Source: Nostoc sp. ATCC 43529
GTDB taxonomy: Bacteria > Cyanobacteriota > Cyanobacteriia > Cyanobacteriales > Nostocaceae
Direction: 5' to 3'
Length of the DNA: 64,000 nucleotides
Assembly: GCA_003326205.1 (NCBI GenBank)
Contig: LWTK01000032.1
Location: 122,707-186,706, forward strand
This document shows positions 18,210 through 62,639 of this stretch, piece after piece (within the stretch, counting starts at the first letter, position 1; each line of letters starts with the position of its first letter). A program made the translations under genes and the position numbers. The notes beneath the pieces were generated by a model. The model searched no databases. It was given only the letters and a program-made list of their open reading frames with translations, and was not told the DNA's origin.

Positions 18210-18302
18210 GGGCATGGGGCATGGGGCATGGGGCATGGGGCATTGGGCATCGGGCATTGGACTAATGACTAATGACCAATGACTAATGACCAATGACTAA
18301 TG
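18210..18302. repeat. STRR (GGGGCAT and AATGACT/AATGACC heptamers)
   Basis: Four or more GGGGCAT units adjoin the start of the FeS protein, then TGACTAA/TGACCAA heptamers run toward uppP. Confidence 0.9.
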
Positions 18303-18315
18303 ACTATTATCTAAT

Positions 18316-20946: not shown

Positions 20947-20980
20947 TGACTGCTGTGTTGATTAAGCTATCAAGTTTTGG

Positions 20981-21108
20981 CCTTTGTCCTTCGTCCTTTG
21001 TCCCTTGTCAGTTGTCCTTTGTCCCTTGTCAGTTGTCCTTTACAAATGACCAATGACCAATGACCAATGACCAATGACTAATGACTAATGACTAATGACT
21101 AATAACTG
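20981..21108. repeat. STRR upstream of psbU
   Basis: CCTTTGTCC/CCTTGTCAGTTGT units, then at least nine ACCAATG/ACTAATG heptamers, ending about 50 nt before psbU. The psbU promoter must lie in or next to this block. Confidence 0.9.
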
Positions 21109-21646: not shown

Positions 21647-21655
21647 ACAAAATTA

Positions 21656-21828
21656 TGAGTTAGGAGTTAGGAGTTAGAAGTTGTGAGTTAAGAGTTAGGA
21701 GTTAAGAGTTAAGAGTTAGGAGTTATGAGTTATGAGTTGAAAACACAAAACTCCTCACTCCTCACTGCTGACTCCTCACTCTTCACTCCTCACTCTTCAC
21801 TCCTCACTCTTCACTCCTTACTTCTAAC
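21656..21828. repeat. STRR (GAGTTAG / CTCCTCACT)
   Basis: GAGTTAG-type units (21657-21738) face ACTCCTCACTCTTC units (21750-21822), ending just before the TTG start of nadB. Confidence 0.9.
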
Positions 21829-40798: not shown

Positions 40799-41010
40799 AA
40801 ATTAGGAGTTAGAAGTATATTACCTCCTAACTCCTAGTTCTTAACTTCTCACTATAGAAGTATAAGTTTATTGGTTAAGTGCTTAGGAGGTGGGGAGATG
40901 GGGAGGTGGGGAGATGAGGGAAATGAGGGAGAATAATAACTCCTAACTCCTAACTCCTAACTCCTAACTCCTAACTCTTAACTCCTAACTCCTAACTCTT
41001 GACTCGTAAC
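40799..41010. repeat. Long STRR block (TAACTCC)
   Basis: Roughly ten CTAACTC heptamers at 40940-41000 follow GGTGGGGAGATGGGGAGGTG units (40889-40917) and an AGGAGTTAG/CTAACTCC pair (40803-40848). It lies just downstream of chlG. Confidence 0.9.
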
Positions 41011-41017
41011 TGTTTTG

Positions 41018-44214: not shown

Positions 44215-45021
44215 ATGATAATTTTGCCTAAAAATAATTCAAATTTATTGCAAGTGCGGCGCTACTGGGAATTGCTGCACGTTTTGGTAGCGCGGAATCT
44301 GAAAGTGCGTTACCGAGGTTCATTCCTGGGGGTTTATTGGTCGCTGTTTAACCCCTTGCTCATGACAGCACTGTACAGTGCAATTTTTGGGACAACTTTT
44401 GCCTCGTATTATGACAACTCAATACTAAATTATGTGTTGGCGGCATTTACTGGGCTAGTGGTAATCAACTTTTTCTCAGCCTCCACATCTCAAGCATTGA
44501 CCAGTGTTGTCAGTAATGGCTCACTTTTGAATAAGATTCGGGTACCAGTTAGCGTTTTTCCTGTATCAATTATTGGTGCGAACGTATTCCAGCTTCTCGT
44601 GGGAACATTTCCGTTGCTGGTATTGATGACTGCGATAAACGCCAAAAATCTAGTCAATGTGTTGTGTCTGGTGTTTCCAGTTCTAGCCTTAATTTTAGTC
44701 TCTACAGGAATTAGTTTTTTAATCAGTGCTTTATACGTATTTTTTAGAGACTTGCCTTATTTTTATGAGTTAGTTGTATTTGTACTTTGGGTCAGTAGTC
44801 CAATATTTTATCCAGCTGCTATTGTTCCACCGCAGGTCAGGCAGTTTTTAGGTTTAAATCCATTATCACCAATTATTGAAAGTCTGCGTCAGATTACATT
44901 ATCTAATTCTCTGCCAGATTTAGGTTTAATCTGGGGTGCTTTGCTCAGTGGAGGAATTATTTTAGCCTTAGGTTGGACTTGTTTCCACATTTGGCGACAT
45001 CAATTTATGGATTTGCTGTAA
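44215..45021 (+). CDS. wzm: ABC-2 polysaccharide exporter, membrane subunit (Wzm type)
   Basis: A 268-residue protein with six helices of the ABC-2/TagG/Wzm family. N-terminal VRRYWELLHVLVARNLKVRY and GSFLGVYWSLFNPLLMTALY are typical of O-antigen or teichoic-acid exporters; NPLSPIIESLRQI near the end is also typical. With the adjoining ATPase it should move lipid-linked glycan across the inner membrane. Its stop is followed directly by the ATG of the ATPase. It is the first gene of the cluster. Confidence 0.9.
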   Translation: MIILPKNNSNLLQVRRYWELLHVLVARNLKVRYRGSFLGVYWSLFNPLLMTALYSAIFGTTFASYYDNSILNYVLAAFTGLVVINFFSASTSQALTSVVSNGSLLNKIRVPVSVFPVSIIGANVFQLLVGTFPLLVLMTAINAKNLVNVLCLVFPVLALILVSTGISFLISALYVFFRDLPYFYELVVFVLWVSSPIFYPAAIVPPQVRQFLGLNPLSPIIESLRQITLSNSLPDLGLIWGALLSGGIILALGWTCFHIWRHQFMDLL

Positions 45022-45762
45022 ATGGAAGTAATACGCCTGGATAATGTTTCGCTATTGCGACGGACACAAGAGGAGTTTTCTTATGACCTTAAGAAAACTA
45101 TGCTATCTATTTTAGAAGGTAAATATCGTCAACCAGTAAAAAAGTTAGTACTGGATAAAGTTGATTTCGTAGTTCAAAAAGGCGAAAAAATTGGTATTAT
45201 CGGTGCGAATGGCTCTGGTAAATCTACTCTTCTAAAGATAATTTCGGGAATTTTGCAACCTACGAGTGGAACAGTACGAGTACGAGGTCAAATTGCGCCT
45301 TTAATTGAATTAGGAGCAGGTTTTGACGCGGAAATTTCTGTAATTGATAATATTGTGCTTTATGGTGTACTGCTGGGATATTCTAGAGCGGAAATGCAAA
45401 GTAGAGCGCCATCAATTTTGGAGTTTGCAGAATTGCAAGATTATGCTTTAGTTCCAGTGAAGGGATTATCTTCAGGTATGGTGGCGAGGCTCGGTTTTTC
45501 CATTGCAACAGAAGTGCAGCCTGACATTCTAATTCTAGATGAGGTTTTATCTGTAGGGGATGAAAGTTTTAAAAATAAGTGCAAGCGAAGAATTGAGAAA
45601 TACTGGGATGATAATGTAACTATTTTAGTAGTGTCTCATGATTTGGAATTTGTGCAGCAGTCTTGTGTTTACGGGGTTTGGTTAGATCGCGGAAAATTAC
45701 GCTTTATAGGTAAGGCTGATGAAACTGTAGATTGCTACTTAAAGGCATTAAAAGAAATTTAA
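45022..45762 (+). CDS. wzt: ABC polysaccharide exporter, ATPase subunit (Wzt type, short)
   Basis: A 246-residue ATPase with Walker A GANGSGKST, signature LSSGM, Walker B ILILDEVLS and an H-loop in VVSHDLEFV. The N-terminal extension (YDLKKTMLSILEGKYRQPVK) is typical of Wzt/TagH. The protein ends soon after the nucleotide-binding domain and lacks the C-terminal carbohydrate-binding domain that in E. coli O8/O9a Wzt recognises the chain cap. Cap-independent export, or recognition by another protein, would follow. Confidence 0.92.
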   Translation: MEVIRLDNVSLLRRTQEEFSYDLKKTMLSILEGKYRQPVKKLVLDKVDFVVQKGEKIGIIGANGSGKSTLLKIISGILQPTSGTVRVRGQIAPLIELGAGFDAEISVIDNIVLYGVLLGYSRAEMQSRAPSILEFAELQDYALVPVKGLSSGMVARLGFSIATEVQPDILILDEVLSVGDESFKNKCKRRIEKYWDDNVTILVVSHDLEFVQQSCVYGVWLDRGKLRFIGKADETVDCYLKALKEI

Positions 45763-45791: not shown

Positions 45792-48700
45792 ATGAATAAA
45801 AATTGGGAAAAAGATTATCCTTCTAATATAGATTTGAGAGTAGAGACTTTAGATGAAAATCATAGTTTGAAAAAAATGCTACGCTTCATTGGACATGATA
45901 AAAACGTAGTAGACTTTGGTTGTGCAACTGGATATTTTGCTCAGTTACTTAATAGTAATGGATGTACTGTCACAGGAGTTGAAATTAATTCTGATGCTGC
46001 TAAGGTTGCTGAACAGTACTGTGACAAAGTAATAGTTGCTGACTTGGATTTTGTGTCTATCACCGAAATATTAACTAATCAGCATTTCGATGTAGCTATT
46101 TTTGGAGATGTTTTAGAGCATCTCCGCAATCCCTGGAAAGTATTAGAAGAAACAAAACATATCTTGAAGAAAAATGGTTATGTGGTAGCTTCTATCCCGA
46201 ATATTGCTCATGGTGCAATTCGTTTATCTTTGCTTCAAGGTAAATTTGAATATACAGAATTAGGGATTTTAGATAATACTCATCTTAGGTTTTTTACAAG
46301 AAAGACAGTTGAAGATTTATTTGAGAAGTCTGGATATATATTAAATGATATTGACTTCACAAAAATAGGAATATTTTCGGGTAATAATTTAATACCTCAA
46401 ATTACGAAAGAAGATTTTAGTAATGACATTATTGAGCAAATAGAACAGGATAAAAATGCTGACACTTTACAATTTATTGTAAAGGCAGTTCCTTGTTCTT
46501 TAGAAGCAAAATATACTGCCTTAGAGGAAAAATATAATGTTCTGAATGAACTATACCAGAAACAACTTGAAGAATTGCAGCAATTACAGTCTCAAAAAGT
46601 ATCAATTAAAAATAACTTCGATCGATTGCAATCTCAACTCCAATTGACTCAAGTTGAATTAGAGCAATCCGAATCTCAACTCCAATTGACTCAAGTTGAA
46701 TTAGAGCAATCGCAATCTCAACTCCAATTGACTCAAGTTGAATTAGAGCAATCGCAATCTCAACTCCAATTGACTCAAGGGGAATTAGAGCGATCGCAAT
46801 CTCAACTCCAATTGACTCAAGTTGAATTAGAGCAATCGCAATCTCAACTCCAATTGACTCAAGTTGAATTAGAGCAATCGCAATCTCAACTCCAATTGAC
46901 TCAAGTTGAATTAGAGCAATCGCAATCTCAACTCCAATTGACTCAAGGGGAATTAGAGCGATCGCAATCTCAACTCCAATTGACTCAAGGGGAATTGGAG
47001 CGATCGCAATGTCAACTCCAACACACTCAAGTTGAATTAGAGCGCTCGCAATCTCAACTCCAATTGACTCGAATAAAACTGGATTATCAAAAAATCAACA
47101 CTTGTCTCGCATTTTGGAATAATCCACTAATAAAAATTATTACAAAATTTTATAAACGCAATGAAATATTTCCTACTGGAGAGATACAAGGTAATTTAGA
47201 AACACCAAGACCTCAAGAAAATAATATTAATGATAGTTTCTTAATTTCAGGCTGGATTTTCAACAAACAAGCCAAAATTCAGTCTCTCATCTTGGTCAGA
47301 GACAACATACTAGAAGAGCTTGAATACGGATTTCCTCGCCCTGATGTATGTCAAGCATATCCAGATGACGAAAACGCCAGTTTATCAGGATTTGTACATA
47401 ACTTAATTTTAAACACCCAATATTATAAGTACATAGATATTCAAATTTGGGCAATCCTTGAAACCGGAGAAAAAATCTGTTGTTTTGCCAGACGTGTTAA
47501 TTTTCAACTTCCCACTCGAACTAAGTACATAAAAAATAAAGAGAGTCTAAGAAATCTTCTTTTCTTTACGCGTAGCGTGGCAATCAAGGGCATAGCTGCA
47601 TATAAACAAGGAAGATTACCAAATTCTCCAGCTTTATGGATTTATCATCTGCGACGTTATTATAGGCAAATTAAGCATTTTCAAAATACAGATATAAAAT
47701 ACTCCAGCGTAATTCATCCCTGGCAAACCCAAGATTTATATCAAAGATGGCTTGAGACTAATGCATTGTCATCAAATCTTTTAGGCAGGATGAGAGAAGA
47801 TTCTGAAAAATTAGTTTCAAAGGGAGTAAAAATCAGCATTGTTGTACCTGTTTACAATACTCCCCAGAATTTTCTCAAAGAAATGATTGAGTCAGTAAGA
47901 AACCAAATATATACAAATTGGGAATTATGTATTGCTGACGATGCCTCTACCAAACCTCATGTCAAAGAATTGCTGCAACAAGTAATGGCAGAGGACTCAC
48001 GAATTAAAATTGTTTTTCGACAAGAAAATGGTCATATTGTAGAAGCTACGAATTCGGCATTAGAAATTGCCACTGGTGATTATGTTGCCCTACTGGATCA
48101 TGATGACATTTTATCTAGTGATGCACTATTACACATTGCTGAATGTGTAGACCACCATCCTGAAGTGGACTGGATTTACACCGATGAAGACAAAATAAAC
48201 GAATCTGGATACCACTTCGATCCACAAATGAAGGGTGCATGGAGTCCAGAAATGGCAATTACTCACAACTTTACTCATCACCTGACAGTTATCCGCAATA
48301 CTTTGATCGAACAAGTTGGCGGAATGCGAAGAGGGTTTGAGGGAGCGCAAGATTTAGATTTGTTTTTGCGTGTGAGTGAAAAAACAACCTCAGATAAGAT
48401 TCAGCATATCCCCCATGTATGTTATCACTGGCGAACACATGCTGGCAGCACTGCTTCACACGGCACTCAAAAGCAGTATGTATTTGATAGCGCCCAAAAA
48501 GCGATAAAAGATGCAATTCAACGCAGAGGTTTAAAAGCTCAAACACTTTTACCTCCAATTGCTAAACAACATGGCTTATGCCTATACCAAATAAAATGGG
48601 ATAATTCCCTATTAGCCAAAAATCCGATCACAATTGTTATTCCGACAAAAGATAGAGTAGACCTACTACAAAAATGCATTTCTAGTTTAGAAAGAACCGT

Positions 48701-50676: not shown

Positions 50677-52434
50677 ATGTTGAACAAAGCTCTCCCATCC
50701 CAAAAAATAAATGTACTCTTGTTAGTTATCTATTCCCTACCAGTTATTCTACTTTTCTGGTTTGTGAGTACCTTCAGTGTTAACGTACCCTTTTGGGACG
50801 ATTGGGAATTACTAAAATTATTTGAAAAAATTGATAGTGGTATTGCAAATTTTCAAGATTTTACTGACCAACACAATGAACATCGGATTTTTTTCCCGAA
50901 GATAATATTTGCAATTATCGCATTTTCCTCAAACTGGAACATTAAATTAGAAACTTATTTTAACTTGTTATTAGCTTTAGTGAATTTCGTTTTGCTATAT
51001 AAAATTGCAATTCATAATTCCGAGCAATCTAATAAAAAACTATTTAATTTAGTTAATGTTGCAATTTGTATTCTAACTTTTTCTTTAACTCAGTACGAAA
51101 ATTGGCTCTGGGGATTTCAAATATCTTGGTTCTTAATAAATACCTGCCTAATTATGGCAGTCTTTATTATTACTGTACCTAAAACCTTGCCGCCAAATTT
51201 GAGAATTTTTCTGGCATCTCTATGCTGTTTTATTGCTAGCTTTTCCTTAGCTCATGGATTACTGTGTTGGTTAGCAATGTTACCATCAATATACTCAATT
51301 GAAGGAAACAATAAAGATAAAAGAACTAGGATTTTGGTATGGATAGTACTTTTTATAATTTGTGTTACATTATACTTTATTGATTACGAAAAACCTTCAA
51401 AGCATCCAAGTATAATTTTTGTTTTACAGCAGCCATTAATTGCAGCTGAATATTTCTTCACTATCATAGGATATTCATTTGGGAAAAGAATTTTTAATCC
51501 TGTATTTACTGGTTTAATAATATTCTTTGCTTTTGCATTTTTTAATATCCATTTTTTGAAAAATTACAGATCCGATTTTAGTAACAAAGCAGCGCCGTGG
51601 TTATCCCTAGCTTGGTTTGCCATTCTCTTTGCTTTGATGACAACTGTTGGTAGAGCTGGTTTTGGTGTTGCACAAGCAACTTCCTCAAGATACGTAACTG
51701 TTTTGATATTATTAGTGATATCCTGCTTACAATTATGGCGATTATGGATATTAGACAAATGGCAAGACAGGAGCAAAAATACATATATTTTTTCAGGTGT
51801 TAGATTGTGTTTGGGTTTTTTAATAGCTCTCTTTATTTTCGATTCAACTAATAGTATTGCAGAAGGTAAGATTCTTTACACACAGAGAAATAGTGGTGAA
51901 AAGTGCTTAGAAATTATAAATTTTCTAGATCAATCCAACAGTAATTCACCAGGTAATTGTTTATCTTTTCTTTTCCCAGATGAATTGCAGATCCGAAAAC
52001 TAAGTAAAACTCTTCAAACATTAGAGTTTAGAGATTTTCCTCAAACTATACCGTTTATCGCTAAACCTGAAAAACTTTACGGTCACATTGACGTTCCCCC
52101 AACAACAGGACAAACTTTAAATTTACGTAAGAGCGATACTTTAAAGTTGTTTGGCTGGGCTATTCTCCCTGAAAGCCGAGAACAGCCACCGCTAGTTTTA
52201 TTGTCCTACGGTAATAATCAATCATTTTTTAGCACTGGGCTTGTCAATTTAAATAGACCTGATGTCGCTACAGCATTAAACTCAAGTCTTTACAATACAT
52301 CAGGTTGGGAAGTAAATATTTCTCTAAATTCCATACCACCGGGTGAAACTGTCATTAAGGGTTGGGTTTATGACCGAAAACGTCAAGAATTCATACAGTT
52401 AATTGGTGAACCAAAGATAAAAGTAGTTGAATAA
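50677..52434 (+). CDS. GT-C-like polytopic membrane protein with C-terminal beta domain
   Basis: A 585-residue protein with about ten helices. The first extracytoplasmic loop has NVPFWDDWELLKLF and DQHNEHRIFFPKI, where acidic residues sit as in GT-C transferases. Residues about 465-585 form a soluble domain (LKLFGWAILPES, LVLLSYGNNQ, RPDVATALN, SGWEVNISL) like the middle domain of the preceding protein. Likely a lipid-linked-sugar transferase acting outside the membrane, or another glycan-modifying membrane protein; substrate unknown. It begins 19 nt after the fusion gene. Confidence 0.7.
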   Translation: MLNKALPSQKINVLLLVIYSLPVILLFWFVSTFSVNVPFWDDWELLKLFEKIDSGIANFQDFTDQHNEHRIFFPKIIFAIIAFSSNWNIKLETYFNLLLALVNFVLLYKIAIHNSEQSNKKLFNLVNVAICILTFSLTQYENWLWGFQISWFLINTCLIMAVFIITVPKTLPPNLRIFLASLCCFIASFSLAHGLLCWLAMLPSIYSIEGNNKDKRTRILVWIVLFIICVTLYFIDYEKPSKHPSIIFVLQQPLIAAEYFFTIIGYSFGKRIFNPVFTGLIIFFAFAFFNIHFLKNYRSDFSNKAAPWLSLAWFAILFALMTTVGRAGFGVAQATSSRYVTVLILLVISCLQLWRLWILDKWQDRSKNTYIFSGVRLCLGFLIALFIFDSTNSIAEGKILYTQRNSGEKCLEIINFLDQSNSNSPGNCLSFLFPDELQIRKLSKTLQTLEFRDFPQTIPFIAKPEKLYGHIDVPPTTGQTLNLRKSDTLKLFGWAILPESREQPPLVLLSYGNNQSFFSTGLVNLNRPDVATALNSSLYNTSGWEVNISLNSIPPGETVIKGWVYDRKRQEFIQLIGEPKIKVVE

Positions 52435-61675: not shown

Positions 61676-61763
61676 GGCAGGTGGGGAGATGGGGGAGACG
61701 CGGGGACGCGGGGACGCGGAGAATGACTAATGACAAATGACTAATGACAAATGACTAATGACT
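61676..61763. repeat. STRR containing the rfbD start codon
   Basis: GGGGAGATGGGGGAGACGCG and GACGCGGGGACGCGG units, then TGACTAATGACAAATGACTA heptamers. The ATG at 61758 used by rfbD is part of a heptamer unit. Confidence 0.9.
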
Positions 61764-62639
61764 AATAGTAAATCAATTCTGCTAATTGGTAGCAACGGTC
61801 AAGTCGGTCAAGAATTGCAACAAATTCTACCATCCCACGGCAATACTATCTCAGTTTCACGCCCAACAGTAGACCTTACCGAGCCTGACACTCTTCGTAG
61901 CATTATCAGAGCAAAGCAACCACAAATCATCATTAATGCCGCTGCTTATACCGCTGTAGACAAAGCCGAAAGCGAATCCGAACAAGCTTGCGCTATTAAT
62001 GCCACTGCACCTTTAATTCTTGCCGAAGAAAGCGAAAAATTGGGGGCTTTTCTAATTCATATTTCCACCGATTACGTTTTTGATGGCAATGGGTGTCGCC
62101 CATATCAGGAAACCGATGCGACAAACCCCTTGAGTGTCTATGGAAAAACCAAACTAGCAGGAGAACAAGCAATTCGAGAAAATTGCACCCATCATCTCAT
62201 ACTCCGCACAGCTTGGGTTTATGGAAACTTTGGCAAAAGTAACTTTGTCAAAACCATGTTGCGACTCGGTGCCCAACGCCCAGAACTGCGTATAGTCGCG
62301 GATCAAATTGGTAGTCCGACTTGGGCAAAAGATATAGCCGCAGTCATAGGCGAGATTATTCCGCATTTGAGCTTAGATATTGCAGGTACATACCATTACA
62401 CAAATAGCGGCGTTGCTAGCTGGTATGACTTTGCGATTGCCATATTTGAAGAAGCCCAACAGCTAGGGTTTCCTCTCAAAGTTGAAAATATCGTCCCCAT
62501 TACAACCCCCGAATATCCCACACCCGCCCGTCGCCCCGCCTATTCCGTCCTTGCTTGTGGCAAAATTTCCGCACTTTTAGGAACCCATCCCCCGCATTGG
62601 CGACAAAGACTCCGGCAAATGCTTAAAGATTGGGGATAG
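61758..62639 (+). CDS. rfbD: dTDP-4-dehydrorhamnose reductase
   Basis: A 293-residue SDR that makes dTDP-L-rhamnose. ILLIGSNGQVGQELQQILP, DLTEPDTL, HISTDYVFDGNG and YGKTKLAGEQAIREN (Tyr-x3-Lys) are diagnostic, and ATPEYPTPARRPAYSVL-type sequence occurs near the end (ITTPEYPTPARRPAYSVL). The only plausible start, ATG 61758, lies in the heptamer array. The ATG one unit upstream (61751) stops after four codons, so repeat slippage would change the reading frame. No rfbB gene is in the cluster. Confidence 0.93.
   Translation: MTNSKSILLIGSNGQVGQELQQILPSHGNTISVSRPTVDLTEPDTLRSIIRAKQPQIIINAAAYTAVDKAESESEQACAINATAPLILAEESEKLGAFLIHISTDYVFDGNGCRPYQETDATNPLSVYGKTKLAGEQAIRENCTHHLILRTAWVYGNFGKSNFVKTMLRLGAQRPELRIVADQIGSPTWAKDIAAVIGEIIPHLSLDIAGTYHYTNSGVASWYDFAIAIFEEAQQLGFPLKVENIVPITTPEYPTPARRPAYSVLACGKISALLGTHPPHWRQRLRQMLKDWG

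Follow-up and report, generated by a model that had tools for sequence, protein, structure and literature searches.

A tandem-repeat-encoded coil between a methyltransferase and glycosyltransferase modules in Nostoc: a candidate glycan-length ruler

We report that one gene in a 64,000-nucleotide stretch of the Nostoc sp. ATCC 43529 genome (hereafter the window) encodes a protein, P0001, in which a predicted coil carrying ten tandem 14-residue units separates an N-terminal methyltransferase head from three glycosyltransferase (GT) modules, and that this array-built coil probably acts as a length ruler between a capping head and a polymerase. A wider reading, that the minisatellite tunes the rod in whole heptads and that the same repeats are the joint at which heads are exchanged on one polymerase, is put forward more tentatively, at somewhat less than even chances. 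As far as our literature searches showed, a coil that is repeat-built, heptad-stepped and naturally variable in length, and that is combined with a range of heads, is new.

Proteins, loci and genomes are labelled P, L and G, respectively, and MT-A, MT-B and ST denote head types; the features of P0001 and of the exporter genes that adjoin this putative terminator gene (44215-45762) are listed in Table 1. The domain order in P0001 is methyltransferase, coil, beta-sandwich, GT2, GT2 and GT4, with Wzm/Wzt directly upstream, and the Pfam matches (methyltransferase, residues 29-182; GT2, 682-840 and 946-1174; GT4, 1420-1594) agree with the preliminary description of this DNA, which had placed the array between a methyltransferase and three GT modules downstream of a Wzm/Wzt exporter. 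The head was recognised both by its methyltransferase fold and by its Pfam family, and the GT2, GT2 and GT4 modules fused at the foot of the coil are likely the polymerase. The Pfam scan of P0001 gave no kinase match, and the helix begins already at residue 237.

Table 1. Features of the P0001 gene and the adjoining exporter genes (window coordinates)
Feature	Coordinates	Strand	Basis
Wzm-like ABC-2 permease, 268 aa, CBM-less exporter lineage	44215..45021	+	Pfam ABC2_membrane
Wzt-like ATPase, 246 aa (P0003)	45022..45762	+	Pfam ABC_tran, no Wzt_C
Candidate one-chain ruler gene P0001, 1621 aa	45792..50657	+	ORF, Pfam
N-terminal head of P0001, SAM methyltransferase (MT-A), residues 1-235	45792..46496	+	
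Predicted unbroken helix/coiled coil of P0001, residues 237-434	46500..47093	+	AlphaFold2; hydrophobic period 3.5, p 0.002
Ten tandem 42-bp units of 14 residues (two heptads) each	46629..47048	+	
Hydrophobic-basic segment, foot of the P0001 coil	47097..47156	+	Low-confidence helices in model; hydrophobic moment
Ig/FN3-like beta-sandwich of P0001, residues 464-572	47181..47507	+	
GT2 module 1 of P0001	47835..48311	+	Pfam Glycos_transf_2
GT2 module 2 of P0001	48627..49313	+	Pfam Glyco_tranf_2_3
GT4 module of P0001	50049..50573	+	Pfam Glycos_transf_1

TRF placed the array at 46628-47070 (period 42, 10.5 copies, 93% matches, 0% indels), and read in frame it consists of ten gap-free units of exactly 42 bp each (residues 280-419), a count that depends on a draft assembly of 113 contigs, directly followed by one half-decayed unit. 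The ten perfect-length units of 14 residues described earlier are thereby confirmed; the array is real, while the boundaries given for it (46635..47085) have to be moved, the in-frame start lying 6 bases earlier and the tenth full unit ending at 47048. A typical unit reads QSQLQLTQVELEQS, and all 20 heptads have Leu at one position and Thr or Ser three residues later, the remaining residues being mostly Gln, Glu and Ser. The mean pairwise DNA identity between units is 0.927, compared to 0.708 +/- 0.015 expected when the ten peptides are kept and their codons are redrawn from the gene's synonymous codon usage (0 of 500 draws reached 0.927), and since this is far above the codon-usage expectation the array is likely young, its DNA having been copied recently. 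The gene has three HIP1 octamers, all of them within the array (46790, 46958 and 47000). The arrays of sister genes have been homogenised separately: identity is 0.88-0.97 within the four arrays having several matched units and 0.66-0.84 between arrays. Elsewhere in the window 7-bp tandem arrays are numerous (18210-18306, 20976-21103, 21653-21822, 40937-41011, 61722-61766 and others), which we take to be probably the short repeats frequent in heterocyst-forming cyanobacteria.

For residues 1-470 AlphaFold2 predicted a confident methyltransferase followed by a single unbroken helix of 198 residues (237-434), corresponding to about 30 nm at 0.15 nm per residue, with the array inside it; in this monomer model pLDDT is 84-96 at residues 251-320 and 55-72 in the last 100 array residues. 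The extended coil proposed in the preliminary description is thus present in the model, with low confidence in those last 100 residues, and the prediction points to an extended coil between terminator and polymerase. The P0001 coil has a hydrophobic period of 3.5 (p 0.002), as have 79 of 86 coils, including 18 of the 20 non-repeat coils, at p < 0.05. Its core is weak, with one Leu per heptad and a Thr/Ser partner, and because of this and the model confidence of 55-72 the term "coiled coil" stays a prediction. For residues 433-665 the model gave a beta-sandwich and then helices. With respect to the beta-sandwich, the C-terminus (51991-52431) of the ORF at 50677-52434 has a GW...RPDV...SG pattern in common with it (BLASTP not significant), and proteins of 182-212 aa with a domain resembling it are found near rulers in L087-L091.

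Counts compared among close strains differ by whole units. P0012 (Nostoc sp. 2RC, 1085 aa) and P0032 (Nostoc sp. ZfuVER08, a MAG, 1001 aa) share 990 of their 1001 aligned residues, and the 84 gap residues, equal to six units, fall within the array, where P0012 has about 9 contiguous units and P0032 has 3. Likewise, P0008, P0009 and P0010 (98.7-98.8% identical) have 11, 12 and 11 units. Near-identical proteins thus differ by whole 14-residue units, as a variable-number tandem repeat does, judged on these two sets of relatives. Repeat collapse in draft and MAG assemblies may lie behind some of the unit counts, and assembly gaps (N) within the array or coil in L046, L163 and L181 indicate that such arrays trouble assemblers, so that unit numbers from drafts are unreliable.

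Many MT-A-headed relatives have a conserved aromatic-basic helix (SKFWKLR..WF) at the coil foot, and we measured coil length from the last conserved strand of the head to this SKFWKLR basal helix. Among 121 proteins examined 61 were measured (44 without the left and 16 without the right anchor were dropped); P0001, having a different foot, is one of the 16 and is therefore outside the heptad count. The 61 coils have 33 distinct lengths between 56 and 235 residues, and yet 42 are 1 mod 7 and nine are 5 mod 7, while the control moduli 5, 6, 8-11 and 13 gave no pattern for the same coils. Coil length differs in 25 of 30 disjoint nearest pairs; for 14 of these the difference is divisible by 7 (p 1.4e-6), and for seven others it leaves 3 or 4 mod 7, corresponding to a stammer or stutter. 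In other genomes (23 loci, four without an anchor) 14 of 19 coils belong to the class found previously, or 12 of 17 after removal of two overlaps. Moreover, 10 of 18 coils under ST heads, which are unrelated to MT-A, are 0 mod 7 (corrected p 0.0004; of 51 candidates, 24 without anchors or with a gap and nine repeats of the same protein were dropped), and for MT-B heads, with too few coils for a pattern, the count is 3 of 6. Discrete heptad lengths are a recognised mark of continuous coiled-coil linkers, as stated in PMC6798134. Of the 19 loci measured in other genomes, 13 have a stand-alone ORF that finishes 21-47 residues past the start of the basal helix, giving a WbdD-like head-coil-foot arrangement. 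Unit-wise slippage alone, without selection, could generate heptad stepping; the stepping is weaker in coils with at most one 14-mer (n=20), of which eight are in class 1 (corrected p 0.03) and six in class 5, and in coils with zero 14-mers (n=11) the stepping is not significant. These lengths also bear on the reading that the coil is an oligomerisation stalk, which di- or trimerises the polymerase and has an incidental length: WbdD is described as a trimer formed via its helix (PMC3482155), but a stalk leaves both the stepped variation and its fourfold range between conserved ends unexplained, and we regard it as very improbable.

In P0001 the SKFWKLR helix of most measured relatives is replaced by the segment in Table 1, modelled by AlphaFold2 as two short helices of low confidence. 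Judged by its sequence this segment would be a functional substitute for the basal helix, and the foot of the coil would sit at the membrane. The same type of foot is present in P0005, P0008-P0011, P0013 and L045. The coil lengths of P0001 and P0005, the sole MT-A pair with this foot, differ by 71, which is not a multiple of 7; those of P0008/P0009/P0010 and P0011 differ by 14 and 42, and the four close MT-B proteins with the window-type foot are all 6 mod 7.

Different heads are found on closely related polymerases. The GT2-GT2 module of the window (P0001 residues 641-1215) is 85-88% identical to modules that have non-MT-A heads, namely a pyruvyltransferase (P0013), a sulfotransferase (L045), a GT2 (P0026), another methyltransferase (P0008-P0011) and a GT-B-like head (P0019), while the closest listed module with the window's own head type (P0005) is 78% identical. 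A site flanked by ArsA and UbiA holds the cassette in 11 genomes of the genus and in the window, with MT-A, MT-B, ST or GT2 heads (L051 shows just the ArsA side), and the match of P0001 to the G012 protein starts at residue 295, within the array. The polymerases of P0149 (carbamoyltransferase head) and P0145 (MT-A-like head) are 96% identical, and by sequence comparison head swapping may extend beyond cyanobacteria; the name of P0145 comes from a gammaproteobacterial MAG. A head other than a methyltransferase could also stop a chain: pyruvate addition by WbbZ is reported to have ended polymerisation early in vitro and, like methyl, to be chain-stopping (PMC10629545). Head and polymerase are on separate ORFs in L047. 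In G022 the MT-A head is a coil-less ORF of 242 aa (L052:14688-15416) adjoining a long Wzt, which is either a terminator without a ruler or a truncated terminator, and the coils of the MT-B loci L157-L159 are shorter than about 55 residues; a long ruler is thus not obligatory. Two Microcoleus proteins, P0112 and P0116, appear by eye to be two-headed, with methyltransferase-like and sulfotransferase-like parts in either order, 21-22 tandem 14-mers and no GT module; neither head is named by Pfam at E 1e-5.

The four head types at one site in 12 genomes, the exchange of heads on 85-88% identical polymerases with a match that begins inside the array, and arrays homogenised strain by strain are also what would be expected if the array were a recombination hinge or neutral minisatellite, in which unequal exchange changes the repeats and provides joints for head swaps while coil length has little effect. 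We consider this improbable, since heptad phase is partly retained in coils without recent repeats, 18 of 20 of which keep the 3.5-residue pattern, and since neutral drift should freely allow other indels.

The exporter bears on whether the head acts at the chain end. Pfam found no Wzt_C cap-binding domain in the window's Wzt, in agreement with the preliminary description, and the locus is therefore not filed under terminator-gated ABC export (O8/O9a, O12 and O4); the published terminated O-antigen systems are said in PMC11231755 to carry this domain without exception. Yet the domain is present in 15 of the 19 MT-A loci examined. A short Wzt is present in the other four (window, L049, L081 and L085), and both of those scanned by Pfam lack Wzt_C; the domain was confirmed by Pfam in 7 of 7 long Wzt scanned and assigned by length and alignment in other loci. 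Both Wzm and Wzt are in view (13-20 kb) in 14 of 14 MT-A loci from the order search, and relatives of the window's permease (E 1e-50 or better) are present in 167 of 388 cyanobacterial genomes searched.

In 46 loci with a long Wzt its C-domain tracks the head type, with a mean identity of 0.46 within and 0.17 between types (an association reached in 0 of 2000 label shuffles), and the nearest neighbour shares the head type for all loci (45 of 46) except the sole GT2-headed one. MT-A loci of several families share 0.47-0.95 identity in this domain, compared to 0.20-0.23 when MT-A loci are set against MT-B loci of the genus; within MT-B and within ST the lowest values are 0.06 and 0.15, respectively. 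The NBD also travels with the head, less steeply (0.72 vs 0.60; 45/46), which means that the cap-binding domain is not alone in being inherited with the head; a cap-reading exporter would predict this pattern, and inheritance of the operon as a block would give the same.

A window Wzt without this domain would also fit a coil that is only a tether, holding the methyltransferase near the polymerase so that internal residues are methylated during synthesis, with chain length depending on how polymerisation and export balance, as for CBM-less exporters. Heads found with the short-Wzt exporter are moreover of at least two unrelated kinds, MT-A (window, G014, G169 and G415) and ST (G012), and its lineage serves the sulfotransferase head in L045; this exporter thus need not read the product of the head. 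(G014 is of the same genus as the window, and its ruler protein equals P0006 of Nostoc sp. S4 across the 720 residues compared.) A tether, however, has no need for a heptad-stepped length, and the matching Wzt C-domain that accompanies the MT-A head in most loci is what a terminal cap predicts; we judge the tether unlikely.

In the ruler reading that we prefer, the helix would pair or trimerise, and the polymerase modules at its foot would lengthen a lipid-linked chain whose free end meets the head only after spanning the rod of about 30 nm, at about 2 nm per unit. The head would then cap (methylate) the chain at its non-reducing end and growth would stop, such that the unit number sets glycan length. 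Slippage or unequal recombination would alter the unit number, and each gain or loss would move the stopping point without rotating the head relative to the foot. In relatives with a CBM the cap would also license export; since the window's exporter lacks a cap-binding domain, capping there would end growth without gating export through Wzt. The ruler idea of the preliminary description is thus supported by the unbroken predicted helix, the heptad-stepped relatives and the whole-unit variants; its emphasis on ruler and synthase in one chain as distinctive does not hold, WbbB and Klebsiella O7 ORF6 being described as already so built (PMC11231755).

Should the wider reading hold, a single polymorphic locus would allow the end and the length of the chain to be adjusted independently. 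The family also suggests that chain ends (methyl, sulfate, pyruvate and carbamoyl, going by the head families) and length evolve as separate modules. The near-identical natural proteins, in which coil length is almost the sole difference, make both the link between coil and chain length and the heptad phase testable. Furthermore, a swappable head, a heptad-stepped coil and a SKFWKLR foot provide a signature for terminators in unstudied genomes.

Several known systems share parts of this design. According to published accounts, NeuO of the E. coli K1 prophage (poly-psi VNTR) also has DNA repeats that encode heptads in a glycan-modifying enzyme, with the unit number tuning activity linearly; it is unlike P0001 in that its 7-bp units act as an on/off switch of the reading frame, the crystal structure speaks against a triple coiled coil and it has no length-ruler role. 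The coiled-coil linkers of LOV and phytochrome histidine kinases are likewise reported to have lengths in discrete heptad classes, but they are signalling linkers, and the account we used mentions no tandem DNA repeat. For WbdD of E. coli the ruler role is established: engineered insertions and truncations that lengthen or shorten its coil are reported to move the modal chain length up or down (PMC5082667). WbdD (O9a, O8) is described with a methyltransferase head and an extended coil as in P0001 and with its foot on the membrane side; unlike P0001 it has a separate polymerase (WbdA), a Wzt with a cap-binding module and, in the O9a form, a kinase. With no kinase after its methyltransferase by Pfam, P0001 falls outside the WbdD O9a subfamily. 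The objection raised earlier, that a kinase is lacking, falls nonetheless, the O8 WbdD being described as a simple methyltransferase (PMC3482155). WbbB (Raoultella terrigena/K. pneumoniae O12) resembles P0001 in its N-terminal terminator, coil ruler, C-terminal polymerase GTs and ABC exporter, and differs, as described in PMC11231755, in its Kdo-transferase terminator, other GT families and a Wzt with a cap-binding module; the description given there makes no mention of a tandem repeat. Finally, K. pneumoniae O7 ORF6 is, as described, like P0001 in having an N-terminal methyltransferase, a coil and two GT2 modules in one chain, and cyanobacterial orthologues of its N-terminal part were already noted by its authors (PMC11231755); in ORF6 the coil is preceded by a kinase-like domain and an Ig-like fold, whereas P0001 has no kinase, a beta-sandwich after the coil and an added GT4 module.
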